A DNA stretch of 64,000 nucleotides from the NCBI GenBank assembly GCA_023129115.1, contig JAGMCR010000013.1, forward strand, positions 1 to 64,000, written 5' to 3'. Below the pieces are notes generated by a model, which was given only the letters and a program-made list of their open reading frames with translations, was not told the origin of the DNA and did no database searches. Both the position numbers and the translations under genes were made by a program. This document shows, in pieces, positions 8,911 to 60,900 of this stretch. Every line of letters starts with the position of its first letter. Positions within the stretch are counted from its first letter, which is position 1. The stretch is from Candidatus Iainarchaeum sp. (GTDB lineage: Archaea > B1Sed10-29 > WALL01).

Positions 8911-9150
8911 ACGCTTTTAAACCCCGCCACGCAAAACACTGTTTAGCAGGCCACGTTTCTCATTATTTTAGCTTGGCCTACTGTCAAACATGGTTTCAAC
9001 GTTTGCCTCTGGGGGCCTTGTGCCCCCAAGCCTAACGTGCCATGACGTGAATCCCGCAGGACCTGGCGAATCCCACAGGATTGCCGGGGCACCTGGCGAA
9101 TTTCCCAACGGAAAACGCCGGGGGATTCTCGTCTGGGCTGAGTTTCAGCT
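8911..9150. other. Non-coding stretch with hairpin
   Basis: No gene seen. A hairpin GGGGGC/GCCCCC (9011-9027) is followed by AAGCCTAA. A similar unit (CTCTGGG, a GCC/GGC hairpin, CCCAAGCCTA) recurs at 9335-9364, so this is a small dispersed repeat. The remainder shows short imperfect repeats (ACCTGGCGAATCCC and ACCTGGCGAATTTCCC). Confidence 0.5.
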
Positions 9151-9233
9151 GCTGGGGTCGCATAGCGGCTATTGCGGTGGCCTGCTAAGTCACTGTCCTT
9201 CGGGGCACGGGAGTTCGAGTCTCCCCCCCAGCG
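9151..9233 (+). tRNA. tRNA-Ser (anticodon GCU)
   Basis: A class II tRNA. Acceptor GCTGGGG pairs with CCCCAGC. The anticodon arm is GTGGC-CTGCTAA-GTCAC with anticodon GCT. The long variable arm is TGTCC-TTCG-GGGCA. The T arm is GGGAG-TTCGAGT-CTCCC. The discriminator is G and CCA is not encoded. It decodes AGC/AGU serine codons. Copies of its 3' end are scattered downstream to 13346, so it probably served as an integration site. Confidence 0.92.
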
Positions 9234-9334
9234 CTTCAGCCTTTTTCCGCTGGTAGCGGAAAAACCCTGGGGAATGTATTATTGCTCGCCATTGCGGGCG
9301 AGCATTTGCTCGCTTCGCTCGCAGTTTTTTTTGT

Positions 9335-9409
9335 CTCTGGGAGCCGATAGGCTCCCAAGCCTACCTCGCCAGCTCAGGTTTGGGCTGTTAGACGTCTCCC
9401 CCCCAGCGC
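9335..9409. repeat. Repeat cluster and tRNA-Ser 3'-end copy
   Basis: Three units abut. A GGGAGCC/GGCTCCC hairpin (9339-9356) resembles the one at 9011. A 25-bp word (9363-9387) recurs exactly, inverted, at 40451-40475. A 16-bp copy of the tRNA-Ser 3' end, GTCTCCCCCCCAGCGC (9394-9409), is identical to 9219-9234. Confidence 0.7.
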
Positions 9410-22335: not shown

Positions 22336-23304
22336 TCATTTCAGCCAATATCTTCTCAAGGCGCTTCCTAATTTTTGGATCAAGTTCCGCGGCTTTTCTG
22401 AACTCTTCTGTTGTTTCTTCATATAGCCTAGGTTGTGGTGTGCGAGTGCTCTGCCATAGTCTATTAATGTGTTGTTTGGGTCTATTTCCAGTGCTTTTTC
22501 GTAGTGGTGTAATGCTTTTTCGTAGTGGTGTAATGCTTTTTTGTGGCGGTGAAATGCTTCTTCATATTGTCCTAGGTAGTAGTGTACGAATGCTTTGTTG
22601 GTGTGTGCTTCTGCGTTGTTTGGGTTTATTTTCAGAGCTGATTCGTGTGCTCGAAGTGCCGGTTCATAAGCCCTTTTTTCACGTAGATTGACACCATGAC
22701 TAGTCCACATTAGCGAAGCAAATTCTGTTTCAGATTGTTCTTCTCCTTTGTGTTTAGTTTTGGTTAAGCCTAGGGCTGGATCGAGTTGTATGCCTTCAGC
22801 AGTAATATAACAATGCCCCACATCTGATGCTTCCACACGCTCTTTTTTTTGTTTTGTTAGTTGTATTAAATCCTTGTTTTCACCCTTGACTCTGAAGTAT
22901 TTTGTTTTGACCCCGCTTTTTTTCAGCATTTGTGCGAGTACTGCAGGTAATGCCACGCAATCTGCTACTTCTCCTAGTCGAAAACGAGGGATAGTTTTGA
23001 CTGTGGGTTCATCAAGCTTACTTCCAAATTTGCTTAATTTTTCAAAAAAAGCATCAAATCTCAACTCTTCATTTCGTTCGTGCACCCATTCACTCAGTTT
23101 AATGGCAAGTTTTTTCTTTGATAATTTCTTGTTTCGTTTTATCCAGTCACCGGGTTGTTCCAACTTTTTTGGTGGCCGTGTTTTGAACAAATCAGGCGTG
23201 GCTTTAATGAATTCGTTCAATAACTTGTTAACAGAAGCAGGGGCAAAGGTTCGCTTAACCAGTTCTTTTTTGGTTAATCCTTTTGGTGGCTTTTTCTTGG
23301 GCAT
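22336..23304 (-). CDS. Transglutaminase-like protein with TPR tail
   Basis: 322 residues. The N-terminal half carries a transglutaminase-like triad: C116 in VADCVALPAVL, H164 in DVGHCYI, D175 in IQLDPA. The C-terminal half is TPR-like (YEPALRAHESALKINPNNAEAHTNKA and two more units). Three tandem 21-bp repeats (about 22500-22562) encode KALHHYE units inside the TPR region, a recent expansion. The lysine-rich N-terminus is basic and no signal peptide is seen. A TATA-like box on the minus strand (about 23330-23339) suggests a leaderless mRNA. The gene lies between the two copies of the enolase 3' end, so it is probably inserted cargo. Confidence 0.78.
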   Translation of the reverse strand: MPKKKPPKGLTKKELVKRTFAPASVNKLLNEFIKATPDLFKTRPPKKLEQPGDWIKRNKKLSKKKLAIKLSEWVHERNEELRFDAFFEKLSKFGSKLDEPTVKTIPRFRLGEVADCVALPAVLAQMLKKSGVKTKYFRVKGENKDLIQLTKQKKERVEASDVGHCYITAEGIQLDPALGLTKTKHKGEEQSETEFASLMWTSHGVNLREKRAYEPALRAHESALKINPNNAEAHTNKAFVHYYLGQYEEAFHRHKKALHHYEKALHHYEKALEIDPNNTLIDYGRALAHHNLGYMKKQQKSSEKPRNLIQKLGSALRRYWLK

Positions 23305-23369: not shown

Positions 23370-23456
23370 GCCCCCTGCCGCGGCGAGCGCCTCGCCAAGT
23401 ACAACCAGCTCCTCCGCATCGAGGAGCAGGGCGTGCCGTACGCCGAGTGGTTTTAG
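23370..23456 (+). pseudogene. Duplicated 3' end of enolase
   Basis: Twenty-eight codons plus stop aligning without gaps to the end of eno (22049-22135). The encoded peptide is identical. Differences are synonymous (CCG/CCC, GGG/GGC, GCG/GCC, ATT/ATC), plus TGA versus TAG. No start or upstream coding part exists. It marks the far side of the insertion carrying the transglutaminase-like gene. Confidence 0.92.
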
Positions 23457-32959: not shown

Positions 32960-34621
32960 ATGGACTTCGCCGCCGTGGCAGAAACCCTTTCCACTCTCGA
33001 AGAGACGCCGTCCCGCCTCGAAATGACCGAGATAGTGGCGTCCCTCCTCAAAAGCAGTGGCAGGGACCTCCGCACAGTAGTCCTCTTCATCCGGGGCCGC
33101 GTCTTCCCGCCGTGGGACCCCCGCGAAATTGGCGTCGCCCAAAAGTCCATGATAAAGTGCGTCTCCACAGCCACCGGCACCCCAGCAAAAAAAGTCGAGG
33201 AAACAATCGCGGCGCTCGGCGACACCGGCCTCGCCGCCGAAGCACTCTTCACGAAAAAGCCGCAGACCACGCTCACCAAGAAAAAAATGTCCCTCGCCGA
33301 AATACATTCCTCGCTCGAAAAAATGGCTTCGTGGGAGGGCAAGGGCACCCAGGAAAAAAAGGGCAGGCACGTCATCGAGCTCCTCAACTCCGTTTCCCCG
33401 AACGAAGTAAAGTACCTTGTCCGCCTCGTGCTCGGCGAAATGCGCGTCGGCGTCGGCGAAGGAATCATGCGCGACGCCATTGCCAAGGCGTTCGGCGTCC
33501 CTGCCGCAGAAGCAGAGCGCGCGTTTTCACTAATCAACGACTACTCCGAGGTCGCCGAAATCGCGCGCACCAAGGGCGAGGCCGGGCTAAAGAAAATCGG
33601 CATTTTATTGTTCCGCCCGCTGCGGCCAATGCTCGCACAAACAGTGCACTCTGTCCAGGAGGCATTGGACAACGGTTGCAGGGCTTGGGAATATAAATAC
33701 GATGGAATGAGAATACAGGCCCACATCAAAAACGGCGAGGTCCGCGTCTTCACGCGCCGCCTCGACGACGTCACCCACCAGTTCCCGGACGTCGCCGAAG
33801 CCATCAAAAACACCGTAACCGCCAAGGAGGCAATCATCGAGGGCGAGACAGTCGCCGTCGACGAGTCCGAGCGCCCGCGCCCGTTCCAGTTCCTGTCGCG
33901 CCGCATCAAGCGCAAGTACAAAATCGACGAAATGGTGCGCGACATTCCCGTCATTACCTACTTGTTCGACTGCATGTACCTCGACGGCAAGAACCTCACC
34001 ACCCAAAAAATGAAGGGGCGCCGCGCGGCGCTCAACAAAATTGTCACAGAAGGCAACCACGTGAAGTTCTCGAGGACGCTCATCACAAACTCTGCCGACA
34101 AGGCCGAGTCCTTCTACAAAGAATCACTAAAACTCGGCCACGAGGGGGTGATGGCCAAGAACCTGGGCGCCGCGTACAAGCCGGGCTCGCGGGTCGGGTA
34201 CATGTACAAATTAAAGCCCGTCACCGAGACCCTTGACTTGGTCATCGTGGCTGCGGAGTGGGGCGAGGGGCGGAGAGCCAACTGGCTCGGCTCTTACCTC
34301 CTGGCCTGCCGCGACCCGGACACGAACGAGTTCCTCTCGATTGGCCGAATGGCGACTGGAGCCAAGGACGAGCAGCTCCAGTACCTCACTGACACGCTAA
34401 AGCCCACAATCGAGTTCCAGAAGGGCAAGTTCGTCAAGCTGAGGCCCACTCTCGTCGTCGAGGCCGGCTACCAGGAAATCCAGAAGTCGCCCACGTACGA
34501 GAGCGGCTACGCGCTGCGCTTCCCCCGCTTAATCACAATCCGCGAGGACCGCGCCCCCGAGGAATGCGACTCGCTGGACCGGGTTGCGTCTTTGCACGAG
34601 CGGTTCACTGCGAAGAAATAG
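32960..34621 (+). CDS. lig: ATP-dependent DNA ligase (archaeal)
   Basis: 553 residues from ATG 32960, because a TATA-like box (CTTAAAAG, about 32930-32937) lies 25-28 nt upstream and the family begins MDFxxVAExxxxLE. An upstream ATG at 32927 precedes this box. It seals nicks during replication and repair. The N-terminal DNA-binding domain is followed by the adenylation motif EYKYDGMRIQ with nucleophile K246, then KLGHEGVMAKNL and YKLKP. The last 34 codons plus stop (34517-34621) recur at 35389-35493. Confidence 0.96.
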   Translation: MDFAAVAETLSTLEETPSRLEMTEIVASLLKSSGRDLRTVVLFIRGRVFPPWDPREIGVAQKSMIKCVSTATGTPAKKVEETIAALGDTGLAAEALFTKKPQTTLTKKKMSLAEIHSSLEKMASWEGKGTQEKKGRHVIELLNSVSPNEVKYLVRLVLGEMRVGVGEGIMRDAIAKAFGVPAAEAERAFSLINDYSEVAEIARTKGEAGLKKIGILLFRPLRPMLAQTVHSVQEALDNGCRAWEYKYDGMRIQAHIKNGEVRVFTRRLDDVTHQFPDVAEAIKNTVTAKEAIIEGETVAVDESERPRPFQFLSRRIKRKYKIDEMVRDIPVITYLFDCMYLDGKNLTTQKMKGRRAALNKIVTEGNHVKFSRTLITNSADKAESFYKESLKLGHEGVMAKNLGAAYKPGSRVGYMYKLKPVTETLDLVIVAAEWGEGRRANWLGSYLLACRDPDTNEFLSIGRMATGAKDEQLQYLTDTLKPTIEFQKGKFVKLRPTLVVEAGYQEIQKSPTYESGYALRFPRLITIREDRAPEECDSLDRVASLHERFTAKK

Positions 34622-35388: not shown

Positions 35389-35493
35389 CGCTTCCCCCGC
35401 TTAATCACAATCCGCGAGGACCGCGCGCCCGAGGAGTGCGACTCGCTGGACCGGGTTGCCGCTCTGCACGAGCGGTTCACCGCGAAGAAGTAG
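35389..35493 (+). pseudogene. Duplicated 3' end of DNA ligase
   Basis: Thirty-four codons plus stop aligning without gaps to the end of lig (34517-34621). Differences are almost all synonymous (GCC/GCG, GAA/GAG, GCG/GCC, TTG/CTG, ACT/ACC, AAA/AAG); one changes Ser to Ala. No upstream coding part is present. The next gene's stop (35477, minus strand) lies inside it. Confidence 0.93.
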
Positions 35494-36430: not shown

Positions 36431-36454
36431 TAGTTGGGTGCCAGGAGTACACCC

Positions 36455-37390
36455 ATGGCCTACACACGCAAAAAGACGATCAAGGGCCACGAATACGCTT
36501 ACATGGTCAAGAGCGTGAGGACCCCCAAAGGGCCGAGGCAGAAGGTAGTGGAGTACTTGGGCGCTGCCCAGAGCGGCGTGCTCGGGGCGGGTCGCCTGGG
36601 CGGGGTGAGGTTTGGCACTGGTTTTTCTGTGCCGGCTGATGAGGTCAGGGCGTTGGCCAGGGAGCAGGGTGCGTCCCTTGGGATGGCTGAAAAGGACTTC
36701 ATGCTATCTGTTTTCTTGAAGTACTTGTACCTCGTTCCTGGCTCTGAAGTGCTGGTCTTCAAGGGCGGCACTGCCCTGTCAAAGGTTTACGTCAAGGGCT
36801 ACCGATTGAGCGAGGACTTGGACTTCACTGCCATGATAAAGGACAAGAAAGCCGTCAGGGAACTCCTCCGCAGGGCCGCACGCGAGCTGGGGTTTGTCAT
36901 CAAGCGCGAGAACATGACCTCGCGGAGTTACACGATACGCTTGGGTTTTGTGGGCATGCTGATGACGCCGAACAGCATCCACATTGACGTTGACTTCACG
37001 CGCACGCCAGTGCTGAAGCCCAAGCACGTAAAAAAGAAGCTGCCGTACAAGGGGCTTGGGTATGCCACGATGGTTGTGTACGACCTGCGCGAGTTGTTTG
37101 CCGAAAAGGTTATGGCCTTATCGCATCGTAAGAAGCCAAGGGACTTCTACGATATTTGGTACCTGTTCAAACACAAGCGCTTCAACCGCTCCGAGATAGC
37201 CAAAATCGTCAAGGCGAAGGGCCGAGAGTTTCCGCCCGGGCTTGATGTGCCAGGCATTTTCTCGGGGACTGACGCGGCCAGGCGGCAGTGGAAGAACAGG
37301 CTCGTGGAACTCATGCACGATGTGCCGGACTTTGACGTGGTCTTGGCAGAGCTGCGGCCCAAGCTAGAAGCCCTCGAGAAAGCCAAATAA
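36455..37390 (+). CDS. AbiEii-like nucleotidyltransferase (toxin-like), second copy
   Basis: 311 residues from ATG 36455; this start matches the N-terminal module of its paralogue and fits the TATA spacing, whereas the in-frame TTG at 36434 does not. KGGTAL (105-110 region) and SEDLDF about 16 residues later carry the catalytic Ser and Asp residues. LRELFAEKVMAL and PRDFYDIWYL follow. Residues 1-36 (RKKTIKGHEYAYMVKSVR) are the module shared with both Fic proteins. It converges on an AbiEi-like gene with a 27-bp overlap. Toxicity is inferred. Confidence 0.86.
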   Translation: MAYTRKKTIKGHEYAYMVKSVRTPKGPRQKVVEYLGAAQSGVLGAGRLGGVRFGTGFSVPADEVRALAREQGASLGMAEKDFMLSVFLKYLYLVPGSEVLVFKGGTALSKVYVKGYRLSEDLDFTAMIKDKKAVRELLRRAARELGFVIKRENMTSRSYTIRLGFVGMLMTPNSIHIDVDFTRTPVLKPKHVKKKLPYKGLGYATMVVYDLRELFAEKVMALSHRKKPRDFYDIWYLFKHKRFNRSEIAKIVKAKGREFPPGLDVPGIFSGTDAARRQWKNRLVELMHDVPDFDVVLAELRPKLEALEKAK

Positions 37391-38185
37391 CTGCTTGTCC
37401 TCGATGTTCTTGATTACCTTCCACTTCTTGTCTATGCCCCCCCTTCTTTCGGCAAAGGTGGAGAGGGGGACAGCTGTTGTGTCACGCTTTATGGCTTCGT
37501 GGAGGGGCTTCGTGGGCCTGACCCCCAGCTTGTCCATTACGTAGCCCAGGCGCTTTACCAGTGTCTTGTTGCGCATTTTGAGCGCGTATTCACAGAGCTT
37601 CTTGGCGTTGATTTCGCGCCTGGCGAAGTAGAGGGCCTTGGCGCACTCGGCGACGCCCAGGGAGTACTGTGGCTTGTCAAAGCAGTCCACAACAGTTTTT
37701 TCTTTCGACGCCATGTTGATGGCCGGGCCGCCCTTGAGCTCTACCTCTTCCCAACCAAAAAACTTGTGCTTGGACAGCGTGACGAACTTGTAGTCCACTC
37801 CATGGAACCGTGTTATGTCCTTTTTTTGTTTAGTGGTTGCTACGTAAACCGAAATAGGTATTTGCTCGGTGAATCCCCAGAAGTTCATGGCGCTCACATA
37901 GGACACGTAGTAAGGTGAGACCAAGTTAGGCACTATGAGCCACTGGTGCTCCCACCAACCTTCTTCACCCGCCTTTGTGGGTATGAGCACGTACTTGTCC
38001 CGTTCTAGCCTATCGAACCACCCCCCCTTTGTGAGGCGGTGCATCAAGTCCCTTGCCACGCGCTTCTTGCCACCCACTATTTTTCGCACGTCAGCCATGC
38101 TAACGACTGCCTTGCCCTCACGCTCTAGGCGCGACACTAGCCTAAAGCCCTTTTTGCCCAATGTCTTGCCTTTATTTTTTCTCAT
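37364..38185 (-). CDS. AbiEi-like antitoxin/transcription regulator, second copy
   Basis: 273 residues. Winged-helix segment LMHRLTKGGWFDRLERDKYVL, then GFTEQIPISV, KHKFFGWEE and ASKEKTVVDCFDKP. It is clearly homologous to the gene at 1233-2039. A TATA-like GTTATATAG (about 38209-38217) lies at leaderless distance, and an ATAATCGC/GCGATTAT inverted repeat lies between box and start, which suggests autorepression. The VPNL codons again contain the 11-bp word (37925-37935). Confidence 0.83.
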   Translation of the reverse strand: MRKNKGKTLGKKGFRLVSRLEREGKAVVSMADVRKIVGGKKRVARDLMHRLTKGGWFDRLERDKYVLIPTKAGEEGWWEHQWLIVPNLVSPYYVSYVSAMNFWGFTEQIPISVYVATTKQKKDITRFHGVDYKFVTLSKHKFFGWEEVELKGGPAINMASKEKTVVDCFDKPQYSLGVAECAKALYFARREINAKKLCEYALKMRNKTLVKRLGYVMDKLGVRPTKPLHEAIKRDTTAVPLSTFAERRGGIDKKWKVIKNIEDKQLFGFLEGF

Positions 38186-39298: not shown

Positions 39299-40174
39299 TC
39301 ACGCACTCTGGTACCCGGTGGCCCCGATGATGTAGGCAATCGTGTTGATGACGATGCCTTCCTCGACGTTCATGTCGATGTTCTCGGTCGTCGGGTTAAA
39401 GCTCATCCACACGACGCTTCCGCCTGCCACGTCGCCCATCTCGGCAACGCCGGGGTAGACGTCCCCGGTCTGGCCGGCCTTGACCTCTGCGCCGGACGGG
39501 AATCCGCCGATGTAGAGGATGTGCGAAGCCGTCACCGGGATGTTGGCCACGTTGATGCTGCCGTTGCCCGCGGTGAGGGGTGTGGCTGTGTCAACGTTCT
39601 TGGCGAGGCCGTTGTCGAACATGCCCTGCCTGATGTACATGGTTGGCGCGTAGACCTGCTCGTAGACCCCGGAGCAGTCGCCCAGCGGGCAGCTGACGGG
39701 CATGACGCTCGAGAGCTCTGCCCACCGGCCGTTGGCCTGGGTGCCGCCCGTGCCAATCACGAGCATATTGCCTCCGCCGGCCACCCAGTTCTTGAGGATG
39801 ACCTGCATTGACGGGGTCAGGTCGGTCGCGGTAAGCATAACGACGTCGTAGCCCTGGCTGTCGAGCCAGTCCGCAGAGCTGATTTTGTTGTACTGCGCGT
39901 CCGTCATTACTTCAACGTTCAGCGGGTTACCGAACACTTGCAGTGCCAGGTTCCCAGAGAGGTGCGCCCTCCAGTCGTTGGCCTCGCTGGCAGACTCTCC
40001 GATAATCAGCACGTTGACTGCAGAGCCGCCAAAGAGGTCGCCGAGAATTGGAACCCCGCGGACGAGGCTCGGGTTGAGAGCAATTACCCCTATAATAAGT
40101 AATAGAATAATCAAGACGGGAATAGCCGCCTCGAATTGTCGCTTGAATCCCTGTTCGTAATACTGTTGTGGCAT
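39299..40174 (-). CDS. Membrane-anchored GATase-like-fold protein, paralogue
   Basis: 291 residues. One N-terminal membrane helix (AAIPVLIILLLIIGVIAL) is followed by the same fold as the neighbouring gene: VNVLIIGES, YDVVMLTATD, LKNWVAGGGNMLVIGTGG and GSVVWMSFNPTTENID...VINTIAYI. A strong GGAGGAG Shine-Dalgarno-like tract lies about 7 nt before ATG 40174. It probably assembles at the cell surface with the products at 38399 and 40517. Function unknown. Confidence 0.72.
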   Translation of the reverse strand: MPQQYYEQGFKRQFEAAIPVLIILLLIIGVIALNPSLVRGVPILGDLFGGSAVNVLIIGESASEANDWRAHLSGNLALQVFGNPLNVEVMTDAQYNKISSADWLDSQGYDVVMLTATDLTPSMQVILKNWVAGGGNMLVIGTGGTQANGRWAELSSVMPVSCPLGDCSGVYEQVYAPTMYIRQGMFDNGLAKNVDTATPLTAGNGSINVANIPVTASHILYIGGFPSGAEVKAGQTGDVYPGVAEMGDVAGGSVVWMSFNPTTENIDMNVEEGIVINTIAYIIGATGYQSA

Positions 40175-40294
40175 ATGCCGCTCCTCCTGTTGAACACCAT
40201 TATTCAGCCCCGCCTTTTAAAGCTTTCGCAGCCCCGGCACAGCTGCATAATTAGTTGACATAATCCCTTTTAAGCCTTTGCATAAATTGTCCCT

Positions 40295-40402
40295 AGTGGG
40301 GGACGAACAAAACGCAGTTGGTTACTCGGCCCCTATGGCAAGCAAACTGGACTAGGGGGATGCCAATTGGCACCCCCCTTAGGCCGGCTCGAGTCCCCCA
40401 CT
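40295..40402. repeat. Palindromic repeat, copy B, inside larger inverted repeat
   Basis: AGTGGGGGAC (40295-40304) and GTCCCCCACT (40393-40402) are perfect inverted repeats. They enclose a near-perfect 24-bp palindrome (40355-40378, half GGGGGATGCCAA). Relative to copy A, one C-G pair has become T-A on both sides, which preserves the stem. The right arm abuts a duplicated gene end. The region otherwise holds no gene. Confidence 0.7.
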
Positions 40403-40440
40403 CAGTAGAGCATGAACTCAATCAAGTTCTTCACGAACAC
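40402..40440 (-). pseudogene. Duplicated 3' end of the gene at 40517
   Basis: Twelve codons plus stop (VFVKNLIEFMLY) matching 40517-40555. Five codons differ, all synonymously (CTG/TTG, GAA/GAG, TTT/TTC, CTG/CTC, TAT/TAC). No upstream coding part is present. About 76 bp separate the two copies. Confidence 0.88.
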
Positions 40441-40450
40441 AGCTTAAACT

Positions 40451-40475
40451 CAGCCCAAACCTGAGCTGGCGAGGT
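40451..40475 (-). repeat. 25-bp dispersed repeat
   Basis: An exact inverted copy of 9363-9387, core CAGCTCAGGTTTGGGCTG. Here it lies between the duplicated and native 3' ends of the gene at 40517; at 9363 it lies 15 bp from a tRNA-Ser end copy. Confidence 0.8.
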
Positions 40476-40516
40476 GGACTAAGGCGGCATCAGCAGATGC
40501 CGCGAATAGGCCTGCC

Positions 40517-42511
40517 TCAATACAGCATAAATTCAATCAGGTTCTTCACGAACACTTCGTCTGTCTCTGGCGGGAACGCGTAATAGACGACCACGCCCCT
40601 GCCGAAGATGTGGCTCGCGAACTTCGGGTCCTTCACCGTAATCCCCGGCCACGTGTTCGCGTTCCGGTACGCCGGCGTCACGTGCAGCTGCACCACCTCG
40701 TGCGAGTTGACGTCGTTCGTCTCCACCAGCACGAACGGGACAGGCAAGTCATTTTTCTTCAAGTCCTTCGCGCGCGTCACCCCTTGCACCAATGGGTGCT
40801 TGACGTCCGCTACCTGCATCACCGCCAGTGCCTCGCTCTCCGTCGCCGGGTCGAGCCGCACTTCCTGCGCAGCCTCAATCGCCGCTGCCGCCGAGTTCAT
40901 TCCCTCGGCAAACCCATCGCCGCACTTGAGCGACATGTCCCTGAGCCCGCGCGCAAGCGCCGCCCATTCGCTGCCCTGCGCAGTGCGGATGAAGTCCACC
41001 GCACCGTTCTCGTCCACAAGCGGCGACGAATAAGCAATCAGCGTGTTCAATTCCTCGATGTGCCCGGTCTCCGCCGAAATGGCCTCGGCCACGTTCCCGA
41101 CCTCATCCTCCTCGCACGAATTGTACTCGTTAGCGTCACTCCGCAGCTTTGCCGCAGCGGCCTCGATGTCGGAGACCCTCGACCCCAGCAGCGAAATGTG
41201 GGAGTCATAGTTCGACTTCACGACCGCGTCTTCTTCACTCGCCCTCAGCGACTCAAGCGACGACTTCGCGCCCGCGACTTTCGTGGCAATGCCCTCAATC
41301 GCGGTTATCTCCATGCTTGTGGGCACGCCATCAGGGATAACAACGGCCTCAATATCGTCGATGTACCCCTCCATCTTCGTTGCGGCAGAACTCACCGCGC
41401 TGGACGACTCGCCCCTCGCGTCCTTCTGCTGCGCCAGCGACTTCAGCGTCGTCACCACGCCGCCCAAATCAGTCTTGGCGCCGCTCTTCTCGTTCTCCAG
41501 GCCCGCGAGGCCCGCGTTAACGGCGGCAAGCGCCGCCGTGGGGCTGCACCCGCCCTCGCCGCCGAGCGCGTTGTGGCACACGACAAACCCTGCGTGCGCG
41601 CTCGCCAGGCCTTCCATGACAGTGTCAATCCCCGCGTAGTACCTGTCGAACTCTGCCACGGCATAATCGTCCGCCACGAAGCCGACGCCGAGCACGCTCT
41701 TGCCGAAGTCAATCCCGCCCTCGGTGCCCTCGGCAGTGATTTTTTCGTACTCGCCCCTTGCCCACGGGTTCGCCGTGGTCCTGAAGCCTTGCTCGTTGTC
41801 CCACCTGAAGTAAATGTCCTGGTAGCTCCCGCCCTCGCACGGGTAGCCCTTTGTGCCGCTCACGCCAAGCGTCCCGTCGAACGCGTCCGCGCAGATGCCC
41901 TCGATGTGCTCGAGCGCGCCGGCGATTAGCGCTTCCTTTTTGATTGCGAACGCCTCGCTCGCCATGGCGTCGGACGGCGTGCTTACCTCGCTTTCCTTGA
42001 CGCAGATTTCTTCTTCGTATTCCTGGATGCGCTTGCCGCCCTCGTCGCGCCACTCGGCGGTGTACTCCATGGTCCTGCACGTTTGGTCGCTCGACGAGCC
42101 GATTGTCCCGGCGTCTCCGACCCAGACCAGTCTCCCCATGTCCTCGAACAAGTAGTTGTAGAACACCTTGAGCTTTTCCGTCGGTATTTCGCGCGCGTGC
42201 TCAACGATAATCAGTGAATAGTCCTGGATATTGCCCTTGGACACTTGGTCGACGCGCAGCTTCTGCACGGGCAGCTGGTACTGCGTCTCAATCATTCGTG
42301 CGAGCGTGTCGGGCGAGCCCATTCCCTCGTCGCCCCTGATAATCAGTATGGTCGGCTTCCCGAGCACGGAATAATAAATGTCGCAGTATCCCTGGCCGAG
42401 CGACGAGCAACCCACGAGCCCGGTCTTGGTCGCGACAATAAGCAGCGCGAAGACCAGCACTCCAATAGCAATCAAGTGGGGCAGGTTCTTCTGCAGGTCT
42501 TGGGACGCCAT
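40517..42511 (-). CDS. Large membrane-anchored GATase-like protein with coiled-coil insertion
   Basis: 664 residues. One N-terminal membrane helix (LIAIGVLVFALLIVATKTGLVG) is followed by the first half of the fold seen in the two neighbours (KPTILIIRGDEG, YSLIIVEHARE, GRLVWVGDAG). A Cys-containing middle with long helical segments (about 180-560) follows, then the second half (VKHPLVQGVTRAKDL, GRGVVVYYAFPPETDEVFVKNLIEFML). The insertion makes it more than twice as long as its paralogues. A TATA-like ATATAAATAC (about 42531-42541, minus strand) gives a leaderless start. Probably a surface assembly factor; function unknown. Confidence 0.72.
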   Translation of the reverse strand: MASQDLQKNLPHLIAIGVLVFALLIVATKTGLVGCSSLGQGYCDIYYSVLGKPTILIIRGDEGMGSPDTLARMIETQYQLPVQKLRVDQVSKGNIQDYSLIIVEHAREIPTEKLKVFYNYLFEDMGRLVWVGDAGTIGSSSDQTCRTMEYTAEWRDEGGKRIQEYEEEICVKESEVSTPSDAMASEAFAIKKEALIAGALEHIEGICADAFDGTLGVSGTKGYPCEGGSYQDIYFRWDNEQGFRTTANPWARGEYEKITAEGTEGGIDFGKSVLGVGFVADDYAVAEFDRYYAGIDTVMEGLASAHAGFVVCHNALGGEGGCSPTAALAAVNAGLAGLENEKSGAKTDLGGVVTTLKSLAQQKDARGESSSAVSSAATKMEGYIDDIEAVVIPDGVPTSMEITAIEGIATKVAGAKSSLESLRASEEDAVVKSNYDSHISLLGSRVSDIEAAAAKLRSDANEYNSCEEDEVGNVAEAISAETGHIEELNTLIAYSSPLVDENGAVDFIRTAQGSEWAALARGLRDMSLKCGDGFAEGMNSAAAAIEAAQEVRLDPATESEALAVMQVADVKHPLVQGVTRAKDLKKNDLPVPFVLVETNDVNSHEVVQLHVTPAYRNANTWPGITVKDPKFASHIFGRGVVVYYAFPPETDEVFVKNLIEFMLY

Positions 42512-42682: not shown

Positions 42683-43450
42683 TCAAAGCGTGAACTTCGT
42701 GAGGATGTGCTTTTCCTTGGCCTGGACCACTGCCTCTACCTCAATGTATTTCCCCAATCCGGACAATGCAATCCTCGGCCGCAGCAATTGGTCGAGCTGG
42801 AACACGCCCGCCGAGTTGTTCATCTTCACCAGAATCTTGACCGGCTTCTTCGTGCCCTTTTTTATACTAACATCATCAATGGCCTGCGCCGATACAGCAT
42901 GAATGTCTTTCTTCCCCATGTCAAACGGAATCCGGCTCCGCCCCTTGCTCATGTCCGTCGCGTCCGCGACGCGCACGACCCCAGCCTCGACGGTGAACGG
43001 CGCCAATTCCTTGCTGTAATGCGGCAGCGCGTGCAGTATCTCGGACTGCATCACGACCTGCTCCTCGACAGAATAGCCGCCCAGTAATTCCGGCAATAGC
43101 TGCGGCGCCAGAATGATGCTGAACAATTCGTGGTTGTGCCGGTGCACGGTCATCCCGATGTCGTGCAGCGAGGCCGCCAAAACAACAACGACTTCTGCGT
43201 CATCAACCGTCATCTTATGGTTCTTCACAATACTCGGCTTCACGCCCCCTGCGACGAGCAGGCGCAGCATCTGCAGCGCGGCGTTCGCCACAATCTGTAT
43301 GTGCACGGGCCCGTGGTCGTTGTAGCCAAGCCGGTCAATCGAGTTGACGTTCGAGCACTTCCACATCGCGGCGAGCCGCTTGCTCGCGCGGACTTTCTTG
43401 ACCACCGACCCCAGTTTTTTGTTCCCCTTCACGGGAATGTTGAACCTCAT
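42683..43450 (-). CDS. HD-domain phosphohydrolase-like protein
   Basis: 255 residues from ATG 43450, overlapping the upstream stop (ATGA). Metal-binding HD motif: the early His in GYNDHGPVHIQIV, the HD pair in VLAASLHDIGMTVHRHNHE, later His in ILHALPHYSKE and Asp in VRVADATDMSKGR. Archaeal relatives are metal-dependent phosphohydrolases of unknown substrate. It is coupled to the sugar nucleotidyltransferase, which suggests nucleotide-sugar or nucleotide metabolism. Confidence 0.84.
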   Translation of the reverse strand: MRFNIPVKGNKKLGSVVKKVRASKRLAAMWKCSNVNSIDRLGYNDHGPVHIQIVANAALQMLRLLVAGGVKPSIVKNHKMTVDDAEVVVVLAASLHDIGMTVHRHNHELFSIILAPQLLPELLGGYSVEEQVVMQSEILHALPHYSKELAPFTVEAGVVRVADATDMSKGRSRIPFDMGKKDIHAVSAQAIDDVSIKKGTKKPVKILVKMNNSAGVFQLDQLLRPRIALSGLGKYIEVEAVVQAKEKHILTKFTL

Positions 43451-44730
43451 TTCTTCAGCCTCTTCATCAGCCCAAGCTTGGCACTGGGGTCGAACCCGCT
43501 CCGCAGCTTTTTCTTCTGCCACTGCTGCGCCAGCAGGACCACGGTGTGCGGCTCAATGCTCTCCCGCAGCACGATGCCCGGCCCGATGAACGAGTACTCC
43601 CCAATCTTTATCCCGGGATAAATGCTGCTGTTGATTCCGGTCTTGCAGTTCGCGCCCACGATGCACCCGAACTTGTTCGCCCCGGTGCCGACCTTCTCGC
43701 CGCCGACCTCCATGTACACCTCTTTCTCGTCGAACCGGAAGTTCGCCGTGACACACCCCGAGCCGAACATCGAGTTGTCCATCACGACAGAGTCGCCCAC
43801 GTAATTGTTGTGGAACCAAACGTTGCAGCCCACGTAGCTCCGCGCGAGCTCGGTCGAAAAGCCGACCACGCTGTTGTCGTCGACGTGGCTCTCGCGCACC
43901 AATGCGTTGTTCGCGACGACCGCGTCCCTCCCGATGTACGAGTCAACAATGACCGCGTTCTCGAACACGCTCGCGCCGTCCTCAATAACCGTGTTGCCTT
44001 TTATCACCGCGCTGGCCGCGATGCTCGCCTTCTTCGAGACGCGCGGCTCCATCTTCGACAGGAAGTGCCTGCTCACCCCGAGGATGTGGAACGGGTACTT
44101 GATTGCGCCCCAGTACCCGGTGTACGGCACAGCAACCACTTCTTTTTCGCCGCACATCTTCGTGAGCGCGACTTCGTACACGTCGTCCCTGCTGCTCGAC
44201 GCGAACTCCAGGCACTCCACCAGGCCCTCGCCGCTCTTGTACTTGTGGAACACGACGTTCACTAGGTCGCTTGGCTCGTTGCCCTCGCCCGGCTTCTCCA
44301 TTATCCCCGTTACCCTGCTTCCATCGGTCACGAGGTAGCCGCCAGGGAAATACTTGGTCACCTTCACAGCCAGAATTGCCGCGTCCCCCTTGGCCTTCTT
44401 GATGGACTCGTAGGCGCTTTCCTCGAACACGTCGTTCGCGCCGATGATTACGACTTCTCCCCTCAGGAACTTTTTCGCGGACAATACTGCGTCCGCCATT
44501 CCCCTAGGCTCTTCCTGGATTGCGTACTCTGCCCTGTCCCCCACCACTTTTTTGATGTCCTCAATATTGAGGGGCGAGCATATGAGCACTGGCTTGCCCT
44601 CGGCGTATTTTTCGGCGAGCTCGAGCTGGCGCAGCACAAGCTCCTTGCCGCAGAACCTAAGCAGGCCCTTGTCCTTGGTAATCGGCATCATTCTCTTGCC
44701 GATTCCGCCGCACAGGAATATTGCTCTCAT
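43447..44730 (-). CDS. Sugar-1-phosphate nucleotidyltransferase with beta-helix (GlmU-like)
   Basis: 427 residues. The N-terminal nucleotidyltransferase domain (FLCGGIGKRMMPITKDKGLL) has a shortened G-G-x-G-x-R loop, EPRGMADAV and IIGANDVFEE. It is followed by a left-handed beta-helix of hexapeptide repeats (ASIAASAVIKGNTVIEDGASV onward). It probably makes a UDP- or dTDP-sugar for surface glycans. The first 8 codons and ATG are duplicated exactly 105 bp upstream (44811-44836), on the far side of a stem-loop element, so the present 5' end has been rebuilt next to an insertion. Confidence 0.88.
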   Translation of the reverse strand: MRAIFLCGGIGKRMMPITKDKGLLRFCGKELVLRQLELAEKYAEGKPVLICSPLNIEDIKKVVGDRAEYAIQEEPRGMADAVLSAKKFLRGEVVIIGANDVFEESAYESIKKAKGDAAILAVKVTKYFPGGYLVTDGSRVTGIMEKPGEGNEPSDLVNVVFHKYKSGEGLVECLEFASSSRDDVYEVALTKMCGEKEVVAVPYTGYWGAIKYPFHILGVSRHFLSKMEPRVSKKASIAASAVIKGNTVIEDGASVFENAVIVDSYIGRDAVVANNALVRESHVDDNSVVGFSTELARSYVGCNVWFHNNYVGDSVVMDNSMFGSGCVTANFRFDEKEVYMEVGGEKVGTGANKFGCIVGANCKTGINSSIYPGIKIGEYSFIGPGIVLRESIEPHTVVLLAQQWQKKKLRSGFDPSAKLGLMKRLKK

Positions 44731-44738
44731 TCAATCAC

Positions 44739-44836
44739 CTTTTCCATCGACGCTTTTCCACTGTTCAGGGGTTGAGCAGGCAAGCGAAACCCCTGTAACA
44801 GAAAAAGGGTCGCCGCACAGGAATATTGCTCTCATT
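44739..44836. repeat. Stem-loop element, copy 3, with flanking 26-bp duplication
   Basis: The element (about 44739-44812) ends in CGCTTTTCCACTG and GTAACAGAAAAAGGG, like copies 1 and 2, with a different core (CAGGGGTT...AACCCCTG pairs). It is flanked by exact 26-bp direct repeats at 44706-44731 and 44811-44836 that carry the ATG and first 8 codons of the nucleotidyltransferase gene. Confidence 0.75.
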
Positions 44837-44857: not shown

Positions 44858-44956
44858 TGGGGAGTGCCACGAGGACAAGCCGCAAGGGCTTGGGGGGAAA
44901 GGAATTGGGGGACGCCAGTTGGCGTCCCCCCAGATGCCGGTTGTGGCACCCCCCCA
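44858..44956. repeat. Palindromic repeat, copy C, inside larger inverted repeat
   Basis: A near-perfect 24-bp palindrome (44907-44930, half GGGGGACGCCAG). It lies between outer arms TGGGGAGTGCCAC (44858-44870) and GTGGCACCCCCCCA (44943-44956). ATAGGCCG follows, as after copies A and B. No gene is seen between 44850 and 45071. Confidence 0.7.
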
Positions 44957-54892: not shown

Positions 54893-55819
54893 ATGAAGGC
54901 GAAGAGCAGCAGGCACAGGGTTGAGGAAGGCATTCGCGGCTCCCCCAAGAACCGGACTGAGCAGGTCGTCCATTTCCTGGAGCCAGGCAAGGACCTCCAC
55001 ATCAAGGACATAACCCAAGAGGCCTACAAATATTTCGACATTGACCGCAAGCAGGTCCTGTCCACACTCATGCAGGGGGCAAAGGGGCCCGGCGCTTTTT
55101 TCGAGAGGATTAAGCCCGCCCATTACCGCCTGACGCCCCTGGGCAAAGAGCTCCAGAAGCTGGTCGAGCTGCCGCCCATGCGCGAGCTCCCGCCCGAGCC
55201 AGAGCCCGAGCCGCCGAAGAGCATTGAGGAAGCGCTGGAAGAGGAGTACTTCAGCATCACGGGCAAGAACCGCTCCAGCAAGCGCGTGCAGGATTCGGCA
55301 AAGCGCTTCAGGAACCTTTTTTTGACGGGCGTGTGGGCAACCGCGGAAAGCGAGGCGCCCAAGGGCTCGACCAGCGGCGTGGTGCGCAGGAAGAGGAGGC
55401 GCATCCTGTCCTGGATTAGCACCCACAAGCGGAACGCTTCGGAGCTCGCGAGGCTTGTGCAGGGCGAGCGCGAGTTTATGTACCCCGAGCTCATGAAGGA
55501 CGCCAAGCCACACCCCGAGCTCGCGGAAAAAATGACTGTGCCAGTGAAAAAGCAGGCTGTCGAGCGCTGGGACTTGGGTGCGAAGTACGACGACGCCATT
55601 TTCGCGGTGTGCAGGGAAAGGGAGTGCACGCCCCAGTTCCAGGACCCGCGCTTCACGGCGAGCGACACCAGCCGCCACCTATTGCTGGCCATGCTGGTGA
55701 GGGACGCCCGGGAAGAGGTCGAGTCATGGGAAAACCCACCCAAGGCCTACGAAAAGGACAAGCTCGGCTATCTGAGGAAAATTGTCGAGAACTGGGTCAA
55801 AAACAAGCACAAGGGTTGA
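54893..55819 (+). CDS. Novel protein with N-terminal winged-helix-like domain
   Basis: 308 residues. Residues 15-85 look like a winged helix (TEQVVHFLEPGKDLHIKDITQEAYKYFDI...YRLTPLGKELQKLVE). A Pro/Glu linker (PPEPEPEPPKS) and a helical C-terminal region follow (VRRKRRRILSWISTHKRNASELARL, then TSRHLLLAMLVRDAREEVESW). No known family. It lies 5 bp after the preceding gene in the same operon as the HerA-like ATPase, which favours a DNA-linked role. Confidence 0.68.
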   Translation: MKAKSSRHRVEEGIRGSPKNRTEQVVHFLEPGKDLHIKDITQEAYKYFDIDRKQVLSTLMQGAKGPGAFFERIKPAHYRLTPLGKELQKLVELPPMRELPPEPEPEPPKSIEEALEEEYFSITGKNRSSKRVQDSAKRFRNLFLTGVWATAESEAPKGSTSGVVRRKRRRILSWISTHKRNASELARLVQGEREFMYPELMKDAKPHPELAEKMTVPVKKQAVERWDLGAKYDDAIFAVCRERECTPQFQDPRFTASDTSRHLLLAMLVRDAREEVESWENPPKAYEKDKLGYLRKIVENWVKNKHKG

Positions 55820-55822
55820 TTC

Positions 55823-55882
55823 TGTCTAGACGTTTAGATTAAAACCCTACTATTTTATAAACTGTCTAGACATTTAAATTAA
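55823..55882 (+). promoter_or_regulatory. Double TGTCTAGAC operator, copy 1
   Basis: TGTCTAGACGTTTAGATTAA (55823-55842) and TGTCTAGACATTTAAATTAA (55863-55882) are direct repeats 40 bp apart that flank the TATA-like ATTTTATAA. The second covers the likely transcription start, just before ATG 55886. The same layout precedes the gene at 57919. Confidence 0.75.
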
Positions 55883-55885
55883 TTA

Positions 55886-57853
55886 ATGGAGAAGCGCGGC
55901 AGGAAGAAGGGCTACAGGTACACGAAGTACGACCCCAAGCGCTATTACTCTCCTGGCGACGCCCGCATCGAGGTTTGGAAGCGCATCGAGAAAAAGGAGT
56001 TTGAGAAGGGCTTCTTCTCGTACAAGGAGAACCGTGTGCTCGCCATCCAGATGCTCGTCGCGAAGCTCGTGCGGGACAAGGGCCTCCAGGTAAGCGAAAT
56101 CACGAGGGACCACTTCAGGGAACACGGCATGGACTGCCTGATTACTTATTTCAAGTCCAAGGAAAAGGCGCTCCGCGCCGCGGGGTTTTCCGACGAGTTA
56201 ATCACGACCAAGCCGGCGGAGCACGACGTCAGGGACATTCGGAGGGCCGTCCGGCTCATCAAGGGCGTGAAGGCCTCGGAAGACATTGACGACACCTTGG
56301 ACGGGCTGCACCGCAAAGTCTTCGGCAATGTGCCCAAAAAGATTGGCTACCGCTATCTCCTGAAACTCGCGGAGGAGCACACCGGAATTAAATACCGCAC
56401 GCTTTACCAGCTCTTCAACCCGAATTACGCGCGCTTCAAGAAGTACAGCCCCCGGCTCCGGGAGGAAATCCACGCCATCCGCGAGCAGTGGGGCCTCGAG
56501 GGAGAGACGGAGCCGGGCGAAGTGAAGCGCCCGGTGCACGTCCCGGGAGAAAGCCCGTTCAAGATGAGGGGCCTGACCGCCGAGGAAAAAACGCTCCTGC
56601 AGGACATACGCACGGGCTTCAGGAACTGGGACTTGACCTTCCTCTCGAGGAAGAAAAAGATTCCTGGCAATGTATGGACTGTCCTGATACTCCCCGAGGT
56701 CAGGAAGCTTTCGAAAGAGCTGCTCAAGAAAAGCCCTGAGCACGAGCCCAGGCTGCTGAGGATGCTCCGCAGGATGTACAAGCGCTCAAGCCACCGCACG
56801 CGGGGCGACAAGCTCCTCGAGAGAGTCAAGGAGTCCCTCGAGAGGGAAATGCTCCTCGGCGGGCCAGAGACAGGAAAAACGCGGGAGCTCCGGCTGCCGG
56901 CAGGCGTGCTGGACAAGCTGCTCCCGTTCATGACACCGAACCGCCGCCTCCAGGAAGTGCTCGAGGAGGCACAGCAGTACTTTCCCGAGTTGAGTTTCCC
57001 CCAGGCCGAGGCCGCGGTCTATCTCGACAGGAGCAGTATTGACCCCCACATCAACCTGTCTTTCTTTGGCGGCGATTACGTGCGGACCAAGAAGGGCGAG
57101 GAGGCAGCGGCGTCCATTCTCCTGCCGCCGAAGCTTGGGACCCCGGCGAGGGAAGGGCTCGACCAAAAGCGCCTGCAGGAAGAGTCGGCCCGCGAGGAAG
57201 TGGAGCGGCTGAAGCGCGTGGCCGAAGAGGAATTGACCCCGGAGGAGAAAGAAGAACTGTTTGCCGACAAGGCACTGGAGGACTTCACCAGCGCCACCGG
57301 CGTCAAGGGCATGGTCGCCCAGCGGTTCAGGAACTATGTCAGGGCAGGCCCAGAGCATGATGTCAAGACACCGTCGGAGCACGCCACGAAGGAAGAGTTC
57401 AGGCTGCTGGGGCAGGAGATCCCCAAAGCCGGAATCGGCTTCAAGCAATGGCAAATCAAGCAGTGGCTCTCGAGGTACCTTGCGCACCCCGAGCTCAAGA
57501 AGTACCGGCGGGAGGACGAGCCGCTCCATGAAGTCGAGGAAGAGCCGCCCGAGATTCCGGTCCCAAAGACCAAAAAAAGGAAGAAAATCGGGCCGCCAGA
57601 GCCAAAGAAAGAAGAAGAGCCCCCGAAGCCCGCCGGCCGGCCCAGGGAGGTAAAGTCCCTGCTCGAGGGCCTCTCGGCGGCGGACCGGAAGAACTTTGAC
57701 AGCCAGGCCCGCGGCCTCCTCAGGCAATGCGGTGGAGACGCCAGAAAGGCGACGGACCTGCTGGCCCAGAGCGTTTCGCGCCTGGGCTACGGCCCCCGCG
57801 AGGCCAGCAGGATAGCAGCCAAAATAGTCGAAATAGAGAAAAAACTCTACTAA
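55886..57853 (+). CDS. Novel multidomain DNA-binding-like protein (paralogue A)
   Basis: 655 residues. An N-terminal domain of about 210 residues contains a unit like the homing-endonuclease-associated repeat (VSEITRDHFREHGMDCLITY, FKSKEKALRAAGFS), then GYRYLLKLAEEHTGIKYRTLYQLFNP. A central domain (about 228-330, EEKTLLQDIRTGFRNWDLTF) and the C-terminal module (SQARGLLRQ...LGYGPREASRIAAKI) also occur in the paralogue at 57919. A charged middle and Pro/Lys linker lie between. No nuclease motif is seen. Expression is probably controlled by the double operator upstream. Confidence 0.75.
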   Translation: MEKRGRKKGYRYTKYDPKRYYSPGDARIEVWKRIEKKEFEKGFFSYKENRVLAIQMLVAKLVRDKGLQVSEITRDHFREHGMDCLITYFKSKEKALRAAGFSDELITTKPAEHDVRDIRRAVRLIKGVKASEDIDDTLDGLHRKVFGNVPKKIGYRYLLKLAEEHTGIKYRTLYQLFNPNYARFKKYSPRLREEIHAIREQWGLEGETEPGEVKRPVHVPGESPFKMRGLTAEEKTLLQDIRTGFRNWDLTFLSRKKKIPGNVWTVLILPEVRKLSKELLKKSPEHEPRLLRMLRRMYKRSSHRTRGDKLLERVKESLEREMLLGGPETGKTRELRLPAGVLDKLLPFMTPNRRLQEVLEEAQQYFPELSFPQAEAAVYLDRSSIDPHINLSFFGGDYVRTKKGEEAAASILLPPKLGTPAREGLDQKRLQEESAREEVERLKRVAEEELTPEEKEELFADKALEDFTSATGVKGMVAQRFRNYVRAGPEHDVKTPSEHATKEEFRLLGQEIPKAGIGFKQWQIKQWLSRYLAHPELKKYRREDEPLHEVEEEPPEIPVPKTKKRKKIGPPEPKKEEEPPKPAGRPREVKSLLEGLSAADRKNFDSQARGLLRQCGGDARKATDLLAQSVSRLGYGPREASRIAAKIVEIEKKLY

Positions 57854-57856
57854 TTC

Positions 57857-57915
57857 TGTCTAGACGTTACGATTAATACCACTAGCTTTATATAATGTCT
57901 AGACGTTACGATTAA
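57857..57915 (+). promoter_or_regulatory. Double TGTCTAGAC operator, copy 2
   Basis: TGTCTAGACGTTACGATTAA occurs at 57857-57876 and 57896-57915, 39 bp apart, flanking the TATA-like CTTTATATA (about 57886-57894). ATG 57919 follows. It is nearly identical in design to 55823-55882, so one factor probably controls both paralogues. Confidence 0.75.
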
Positions 57916-57918
57916 TCA

Positions 57919-60900
57919 ATGCCCAAGGGTTTGGAGGAAAGGAAGCTCGGCCGCAAGCCCGGCTTTAAGTTCCCGAAGGTCGAGCCGGACAAGCTGCGGC
58001 CAATAATCAAGGATTATCTTGAGAAGAAAAGGGATTCGCTCGCGGACGGCTTCTGGACGCACGAGGACCAGGCGGCGACTGCGGTGCGCATGATGGTCGG
58101 GAAGCTCGTGCGGGACCGCGGCCTGCAGGTGAGCGAAGTCACTCAAGACCATTTCCCTGAGTTTGGCATGGGGAGCGCGCTTAGGGTTTTCGGCTCGAAG
58201 GAAAACGCGCTCAAGGCCGCGGGGTTTTCTGACGAGCTAATCAATACAAAGCCGGCGGAGCACGATGTCGCGAGCATTCGAAACGCGGTCCGCTTGATTG
58301 AGGGCGTCAAGGGCCCGGGGGACATTGACGAGGCTTTGCACAACTTGCACCGCAGGGTGTTCGGTGATTCTCCCAAGCGGGTCAGCTATCGTTATTTGCT
58401 GAAGCTCGCGGAAGAATACACGGACATCAATTATCGCACGCTTTACCAGCTCTTCAACCCGAAGTATTCCCGGTTCAAGGATTTCGACAAGGGCCTCAAG
58501 GACGGCATAAAAGCAATCCGCAGGCACTGGCGCATCGGGGAAAAAGTGGCGGTGAAGCGTGAAGTGTACTCGCCGCTTGACCGCGGTTTGCTGGAGAAGC
58601 GAAAGCGGGCGAGTGCCGACGAGCGAAAGGCGGCTCACTGGTTTAACGTTAATCTCAAGGATGCTAGTACTGCTTCCGTCGGGGGGCTGAGGCGCGGCCT
58701 CACGGTATTGCCGCTGCTTTCGCACGAGGTGCGTGTGGCAATCCTCGCGCGCCTTAAGCCTGAGAACTATGACTATCGCGTGTCTTTCAGGAAAGGCGTC
58801 GTGGGGTTGACTACGAAGGAGCGGGAGGCGATAAGGCCGCACGTGCCCCCCGGGCTCAAGGAGCTTTTTGACGAAATCCCGCTTGGCGGAGTGGACCTGG
58901 AGCTGCCTTCGGCAAAGGCGGCTGAGGAAGACTTGTGGGAGAAGCAGAGGGAGCTCCAGAGGCTGGAGACCCAGAAACTGATTGAGGAGTGGAAGGAAGA
59001 GCTGCTGGAAGAGGGGGAGAGGCAATTGCGGGAGAAGGCGAGGGACGAGCAGGACTACCAGAAAATGCGTAGGGCAGAGGAAGAAAAGCTGGAGAGGCAG
59101 CGCAAGGCGGAGACGTGGAGGCGCTTGCTGAAGGAGAAGAGGGCGGAGCAGGAAAGGGAGGGGAGGGAGAAGGCGCTTGAGGAAAAGAAGAGGCAGCGCC
59201 AGGAAATGAAGCAGAAGCTGTTCGAGGAAAAAGAGGAAAAGAAGCGCTTGGGGATGGAGGCGAAGCGGCTCAAGAAGCAAAAGGAAGAGCAGGAGCGCGA
59301 GGCGCAGAAGGAATGGGAAAAGCAGCAAAAAGAATTGCAGAAACAGAAAGAAGCCGCGGAAGTTGTCGAGAAAGGCGTTGCCTTCTTGGAGGAGTCGGCT
59401 GAGGGAGAGGGTTGGTTCGTTAGTTCTAAGGAGCGTGTGGACCGGGTCCCGCTTTCGTTCTTGTCGGGGGAGCTAGACAAGCCTGGCCCGAGACTAGGGA
59501 AGTATTTTGATGGCATGTCCTCCGAGCAGCTGGAGCGCGTGAAGGCGGCTGCAGACAAAAACGCGGCAAAGCAGGCGGCGAAGAAGGCGGTGAAGCAAAG
59601 GGCGGTGGAAGAGCAGGAGCTGGCGAGGCGGGAGGCCTGGGCGAAGAGACAGGCGGAAATGGAGAAGGCTCGGGCGAAGAGAAAAGAGGAAGTGGAGAAG
59701 GCTCTGGAAGCGAAAGCCGGGGAGGAAGCGAGGCTAATCAAGGAGCTCACCGAAGCCAGCGCCCCAGACCTCCCTGCCATGACACATACCCAGAAGATTT
59801 ACGAGTTCGGCCGCACGCACAAGGGCTTCAGGACAAACGAATTGATGGCGTGGCTGGAGGCACGCGATCCAACCATCTCGCGCAATCGCCATGGCGTGTA
59901 CTATGCTATTGGGCGAATGTACAGGAACAAAAAAGAGCTGTCCAAGACGGACAGCGTCTACACTTTTACTCCGGAGGGGGAGCGCAGCATCAAGCTCCAC
60001 GAGGGCCTCAAGGGGAAGAGAACCCCAGAGACCATGGCCGAAAGAATCTTCTCTTTGGTAGAGCCGGGAGTGGGGTATTCAAGCCACTGGCTTATCGAGA
60101 ACCTGTCCAAGCATTACAAGGAAGACAAGGACCTGGACTCCAAGACGTTCAGCACCAAGATTCACGCCAGCCTGCACACCGGCCTTCTCTTCGAAAGGCC
60201 GGACTATGTTTATTTCCTGACGCCCAGGGGGGTCGAGAACAGGAAGCCGATTGCGTCCGTCCATGACCTCAAGGAAGCGCTGGGCGAGCCCCCCGCAGAA
60301 ATTGCCGGCGAGGCCGTTGAGCTGGAGATTGGCGGCAAGCCCAGAAGGGTCGTGCTCACCCCCAAAGAAAAGGAGATCCTGGGCAAGCTCCGTGGCGGCT
60401 TCGAGAAAAAGACTTTGCGCTTTGTCGCCACCGAAAGGTTCCTCCAGGCTTACGGCAATTTGATAGTGCCGGAGGTGGAAAAGCTGGCACTGAAGTTCCT
60501 CAGGGACAACCCGACTGCCGGGGCACTTGAGACCCTGCGCGTTATAGTGGGCACCATGTACGCGGACCCCAAGACGGCGAGTGCCGGCAGGATTATCAGC
60601 AACGTAAGGGCAGAGCTCGCCAAGGAAGGCATTGAAGTAAAAGAGCCAGCCCCGCAGAAGGCGGTTGCGCCCGAGGGGCCCAGCGCCACGGAGGAAGAGC
60701 TCTGGGCGGAAATAATTGCGCGGCAGAAAGAAGAGGAGAAACAAAAGAAGAAAGAAGAGCCAAAAAAGCCTTCAGGCGCGGGGAAGCCGGGCAGGGCAAA
60801 ATTCGGGGAAGAGCGCCCGCCCGTGTCGCTGAAGGACTTGCCGGCCACAGAACAGTACAACCTCGCTGTCCAGGCCCGCAACCTGCGCAAGAAGTTCAGC

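Follow-up and report, generated by a model that had tools for sequence, protein, structure and literature searches.

A double-hairpin element between two copies of an archaeal gene end, one site of a genome-wide pattern of probable target-regenerating insertion

When elements of the SSV/pNOB8 type integrate, the element-borne copy regenerates the end of the target and the displaced copy stays as a direct repeat (PMC3293823); for SSV1 at its tRNA gene this repeat is 44 bp long, and mismatches between attP and attB persist (PMC3293823). The gene end analysed here has the same anatomy. Elements of that type, however, span kilobases and bring their own integrase to a fixed target, whereas those described below are non-autonomous, share one common end, mark dozens of unrelated targets and join them precisely at the end of a hairpin. 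A second close parallel is the fungal mitochondrial mORF hybrids (Allomyces atp6; Glomus atp6, atp9, cox2 and nad3), in which the gene acquires a foreign carboxy-terminal end from an insert and its native end comes to lie farther downstream; an end of the displaced type differs only synonymously from that of a relative (PMC3630166). Here too we find an in-frame hybrid gene and a displaced native end, although which of the two copies is foreign is something that we infer. The mORF insert, in contrast, encodes the homing endonuclease that drives it, whereas ours is a 56-nt double hairpin without a gene, and tRNA genes are targeted as well, at many loci of an archaeal chromosome.

Three further systems share some features with this locus. 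Mitochondrial double-hairpin elements are likewise short, mobile-looking hairpins found in intergenic regions and beside tRNA genes (PMC2800124), but those of Allomyces were reported without flanking duplications (PMC2800124), whereas here copies of the gene end are the rule. Integron cassettes and attC sites, which are known from archaea too (PMC9668308), have in common with our elements the structured hairpin sites and the arrays built by repeated insertion; here, in contrast, there is no integron integrase, inspection by eye revealed no paired R'' (RYYYAAC) and R' (GTTRRRY) boxes, and a gene end is repeated rather than a whole gene. The tyrosine integrase IntpTN3 of Thermococcus nautili carries out low-specificity, homology-type recombination between identical segments down to 104 bp (PMC8371274, PMC5495485) and is an archaeal precedent for recombination of that type, although most of the repeats here are shorter than 104 bp. 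Because a low-specificity archaeal integrase is known (PMC8371274), a trans-acting recombinase is plausible in our case, but the precedent does not identify it.

The locus lies in a 64,000-nucleotide stretch (the window) that is part of contig C5 of an archaeal genome (G000) of 1,247,405 bases in 19 contigs. The affected gene encodes 664 amino acids; it is conserved over its full length across the order, and its product has no match in Pfam or NCBIfam. The features at its end are as follows.

40517–42511, reverse strand: 664-aa gene whose end is duplicated (open reading frame; orthologues)
40516–40555, reverse strand: gene-attached (regenerated) tail copy (repeat and codon comparison)
40441–40515, reverse strand: 75-bp insert separating the two tail copies
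40451–40512, reverse strand: family-A double hairpin, full-length covariance-model match, 33.4 bits (model search; fold)
40401–40440, reverse strand: displaced tail copy, still encoding VFVKNLIEFMLY and a stop (repeat and codon comparison)
40292–40404, reverse strand: palindromic inverted-repeat element of family B, core palindrome 40348–40384 (fold; family census)
39299–40174, reverse strand: next gene; in several relatives its orthologue follows the 664-aa gene without an insert

The two tail copies are 40 bp each and identical at 35 of 40 positions. Compared in frame, they span 13 codons including the stop, with five synonymous and no nonsynonymous differences, which confirms the first-pass annotation's reading that the gene's final 12 codons are repeated together with its stop. 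The inverted-repeat element that it placed against the distal copy is also real: 40292–40404 has 10-bp terminal arms (AGTGGGGGAC/GTCCCCCACT) and folds at −57.4 kcal/mol (z = −4.4). A candidate third, decayed tail copy near 40300 was discarded, as its 19/40 match was no better than chance (p = 0.30). The 75-bp insert contains no gene. It does contain a 25-bp repeat that had been thought to recur only at 9363, and within the window 9363–9387 is indeed its sole other exact occurrence; beyond the window the statement fails, because the 21-bp core of the repeat has six exact matches in the genome (both window sites included) in addition to near matches, so that its apparent rarity was a window effect.

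A genome search with this region, followed by iterated profile searches, placed the insert in a repeat family (family A) with members at 59 places. The unit is a gene-less 56-nt double hairpin with the alignment consensus TGCCTCT-GGGGGG..CCCCCC-AAGYCTAACGTGCC-AGCTGAGTTTCAGCT-G, and both hairpins covary, with 93.5% of cells paired and 50 cells changed on both sides versus 15.7 in shuffles. A covariance model found about 59 matches in this genome and 9 in G001, a second species of its genus; a distant genome gave 1 weak match, and the remaining 16 genomes of the class gave none. The phylum-level search took in the same 19 genomes as the class-level one. Rfam matched only tRNA and SRP RNA, and not the hairpin element, in the window and two element loci, and two pattern scans of viral contigs found no element. 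Most copies carry GYCTAAC after hairpin 1, for which we saw no matching R' box by eye in the alignment. At 9004–9150 of the window, directly upstream of a tRNA-Ser gene, lies a variant whose 3′ part is extended and holds several hairpins (CATGACGTGAATCCCGCAGG...), nearly identical at C17:10144 and C2:2521. Downstream of the same tRNA gene is the window's second element.

9151–9234, forward strand: tRNA-Ser(gct), T-arm duplicated
9332–9387, forward strand: second family-A element in the window
9388–9409, forward strand: displaced tRNA-Ser T-arm copy, 17/22, directly after the element

For 36 model matches, we looked in the 400 bases preceding hairpin 1 for similarity to the 50 bases past hairpin 2. 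The displaced-copy score was at least 24 for 22 of the 36 elements, compared with 5% when partners were permuted, and 14 showed no clear flanking copy by this test. Many of the matches began at the first base (+1) after hairpin 2, and what had been copied was the end of the neighbouring gene or tRNA. In the cases that we read, polarity was constant: the 5′ side of the element faced the intact gene, and the hairpin-2 end faced the displaced copy. At that junction the element ended in GGGCTG, CAGCTG, AAGCTG or CGGCTG in 24 of 34 cases, while the target ends had no core sequence in common, which is unusual for one site-specific integrase. Displaced T-arm copies stood beside many tRNA genes (Ser, Arg, Glu, Leu, His and others), several of them starting in or near the T-loop. 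The arrangement recurred in the second species (G001), with copies at a tRNA-Gln 5′ end, a tRNA 3′ end and a protein tail, and with a gene-head array (L081) in which two identical heads with identical elements are followed by diverged copies. The same locus (L081:2780–3021, G001:C34) also holds a tandem repeat of about 100 bp (ACAGACGGCAAAGAACCCATGCGC...) downstream of an intron-containing tRNA-like sequence. Genome-wide, 16 local repeat pairs ended at CDS tails where 4.7 were expected, and 1 lay at a CDS head where 4.6 were expected, counts that are approximate given that genes were called naively as the longest coding-like frames and that several pairs came from one locus. The excess at CDS tails excludes chance as the source of the duplication.

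The differences between tail copies were as informative as their positions. Across ten protein-gene pairs, 49 codon differences were synonymous and 16 nonsynonymous, and among the five cleanest pairs (enolase, DNA ligase, the 664-aa gene, a gene on C7 and PCNA) only 1 of 23 was nonsynonymous. Duplication in place followed by drift predicts that about 58% of differing codons should be nonsynonymous, and in 2000 simulated runs none yielded 1 or fewer of 23; we therefore rejected that explanation. The synonymous bias instead indicates that the copies diverged as working gene ends, as alleles of different strains, and were joined recently. Continued selection on the displaced copy, for instance through reversible switching, would leave the same synonymous pattern.

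Orthologous loci provided sites without an insert. In seven relatives (G002, G003, G005 and G007–G010) the orthologue of the 664-aa gene stops at the same point, and downstream of it there is neither a tail copy nor a family-A element; in several of them roughly 80–200 bp, free of any insert, separate this stop from the orthologue of the next gene. A search of G001 gave no match to the 664-aa gene. The size of the locus therefore varies among relatives, as the first-pass annotation had proposed to look for. Its suggestion of an empty or collapsed integration site held up in part. The anatomy of an integration site, with a regenerated gene, an insert and a displaced gene end, is present and recurs through the genome with and without gene cargo. 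The gap, on the other hand, is not vacant: a full-length copy of the dispersed double hairpin occupies it, with no sign of lost cargo. The site is thus one member of a genome-wide pattern and not an emptied one.

Two other families of palindromic or hairpin elements occur in the window. Family B follows the pattern GCCTA-GGGGGRYGCC-AATT-...-TAGTCC, with palindromes at 40348–40384, 7693–7729, 44901–44936 of the window and at other sites, and part of its profile matches overlap hairpin 1 of family A, so the two families may be related. Family M has 27 copies in the genome (the one listed below and 26 others) with the pattern CCCTTTTTCTGTTAC...GGAAAAGCGTYGATGGAAAA.

44706–44731, reverse strand: head of a nucleotidyltransferase gene (43447–44730), intact copy
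44740–44810, reverse strand: family-M hairpin element, between the two copies of the gene head
44811–44836, reverse strand: second (displaced) copy of the head, 26 bp identical

Gene-end copies flank family-M elements at some loci, and at C16:17833 and C5:81157 the flanking heads or tails differ synonymously. The flanking-copy score exceeded the 95th percentile of the null for 12 of the 27. At the displaced copy the element ended in GGGYTG (reverse strand) in 17 of 24 cases, which resembles the end of family A.

We consider the 664-aa locus to be, with somewhat better than even probability, an integration-like insertion of a non-autonomous double hairpin at the 3′ end of the gene, accompanied by an allelic gene end. 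The incoming DNA would have consisted of the element and the orthologous gene end of another strain. Recombination within the common gene end would then have fused the gene body to the incoming tail, keeping the gene intact and leaving the native tail on the far side of the element, so that the gene-attached copy (40516–40555) is presumably the incoming allele and the displaced copy (40401–40440) presumably the native end. Formally, this could be the single-crossover (Campbell-type) insertion of a circle made of element and gene end, in which the element boundary is fixed at the 3′ end of hairpin 2. That the intermediate is circular and that the gene-attached copy is of foreign origin are our deductions from this arrangement, as is the choice of enzyme. 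A trans-acting tyrosine recombinase is one candidate, and the genome has a single tyrosine recombinase gene (C12:78360–79529, not adjacent to the insert), whose best model is XerA_Arch at 131 bits, below that model's 220-bit cut-off; a recombinase of this XerA-like type is apparently also present in the genus-mate. RadA-type recombination between short homologies could serve as an alternative. We found no recombinase linked to the elements, and the integron-integrase model TIGR02249 scored 46.8 bits against a cut-off of 265. The pattern itself is real, genome-wide and out of the ordinary, and it probably belongs with the recognised target-regenerating insertions.

Gene-end copies also flank inserts that have no hairpin. 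The copies of the enolase and DNA ligase tails in the window, and those of other genes elsewhere, enclose 0.7–2.1 kb of cargo.

22049–22133, forward strand: enolase tail, gene-attached
22336–23304, reverse strand: TPR protein in the 1.2-kb cargo between the enolase tails
23370–23454, forward strand: displaced enolase tail
34517–34621, forward strand: DNA ligase tail, gene-attached
35389–35493, forward strand: displaced DNA ligase tail

The 0.77-kb cargo between the DNA ligase tails encodes a DUF2283 protein and a second small ORF, and cargo genes overall include the TPR protein, the DUF2283 protein, an AAA_14/DUF4143 ATPase, a nucleotidyltransferase-HEPN pair and others. One iterated locus is that of PCNA, whose tail recurs twice; another is the gene at C7:49010–50284, which is followed by at least three further diverged copies of its tail with different genes between them, making C7:49010–54958 (L042, L041) an iterated accretion island. 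We found no core sequence shared by all gene-tail junctions: the hairpin inserts share an RGYTG-like element end, while a motif was sought at the gene-cargo junctions and none was found, either among them or in common with the hairpin junctions, so one mechanism for both kinds of insert is not proven. The DNA ligase has its closest match (57%) in a Diapherotrites archaeon and its next in Altiarchaeota, which points to a probable DPANN-type host. Two related AbiEii/AbiEi-type toxin-antitoxin pairs (the AbiEi match is weak) lie at 359–2051 and 36434–38185 of the window, with about 72% identity over 415 bp of the partner region. In the segments 55819–57921 and 56051–58479, the tandem paralogues 55886–57853 and 57919–61008 have similar intergenic starts.

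The cargo bears on the best-surviving alternative, that large viruses or plasmids integrated classically at gene and tRNA ends and that the hairpin inserts are collapsed attL-attR scars. Gene cargo of 0.7–2.1 kb at several tails would fit this account, as would the way in which SSV/pNOB8-type elements regenerate tRNA targets while displacing the target end (PMC3293823). We nevertheless regard it as improbable, since no cargo that we examined contains an integrase gene, the genome has one tyrosine recombinase, and unrelated scars should not share a full-length structured 56-nt unit, as dozens of targets here do.

If homing endonucleases drove the transfer of inserts with gene tails, as they do in the mitochondria of Allomyces and Glomus, this would account for both the anatomy and the synonymous-only signature, which are those of the mORF hybrids (PMC3630166), and the genome is rich in LAGLIDADG domains: LAGLIDADG_3 has 16 matches, mostly in frames of 860–1724 aa, and a few free-standing LAGLIDADG genes lie beside tRNA genes. 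One of these, at C13:96344–97117 (L060), ends within tRNA-Met on the opposite strand, and its last residues (VAGTRFELMTFGL) are encoded by the antisense of the tRNA-Met 3′ half. The long frames are intein-like, however, which suggests an intein-rich genome, and the free-standing genes are not, by eye, flanked by copies of one gene end. No homing endonuclease was recognised in the insert at the 664-aa gene or in the cargos searched, and a single enzyme could not cleave dozens of unrelated target ends. We give this mechanism little chance of being the right one.

Equally doubtful is the idea that the hairpin transposed and duplicated a long target site, after which ordinary recombination swapped in diverged gene-end alleles. 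In its favour are the dispersal of the element and the identity of some flanking copies (tRNA ends and the first two L081 heads). Against this, the repeats range in length from about 15 to 105 bp, the exchange of alleles would need to break off where the gene ends independently at every locus, and there is no matching transposase or Cas1 among the families searched. Neither G000 nor G001 contains a Cas1, a reverse transcriptase or a Y1 (HUH) transposase, which led us to reject CRISPR or casposon insertion, a group II intron and an IS200/IS605-type single-strand transposon; a diversity-generating retroelement was rejected on the missing reverse transcriptase and the lack of A-biased amino-acid changes. 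The possibility that chimeric assembly joined strain variants in this metagenome-assembled genome, suggested by a draft in 19 contigs and by the allelic look of the copies, we dismiss as very remote, because the sequence between copies is unrelated and offers no overlap that an assembler could use, the junctions fall repeatedly at the same element end and include tRNA copies, and an independent assembly (G001) has the same structures.

Returning to integration-like insertion with an allelic gene end, a more far-reaching version is conceivable, though we hold it only tentatively: an undescribed recombination system of this DPANN-like archaeon that moves hairpin-tipped 'gene-end cassettes' between strains. 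In such a system a circle of structured element and allelic gene end would enter the chromosome of another strain where the gene ends match, the hairpin terminus serving as structural recombination signal and the gene end as address. If so, gene-end cassettes would constitute an integration system programmable by homology, through which strains would also exchange their gene-end alleles.

The usual view of integration at gene ends pairs one element with one integrase and one target. Here dozens of unrelated targets are marked by one small, structured, gene-less element, each with an allelic-looking displaced end. If our reading is correct, the displaced ends would be dated records of recombination between strains, and alleles in this lineage would be exchanged especially often at gene ends. 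Toxin-antitoxin pairs and similar small cargo may arrive by the same route, and the reading predicts a recombination activity addressed by short homology.
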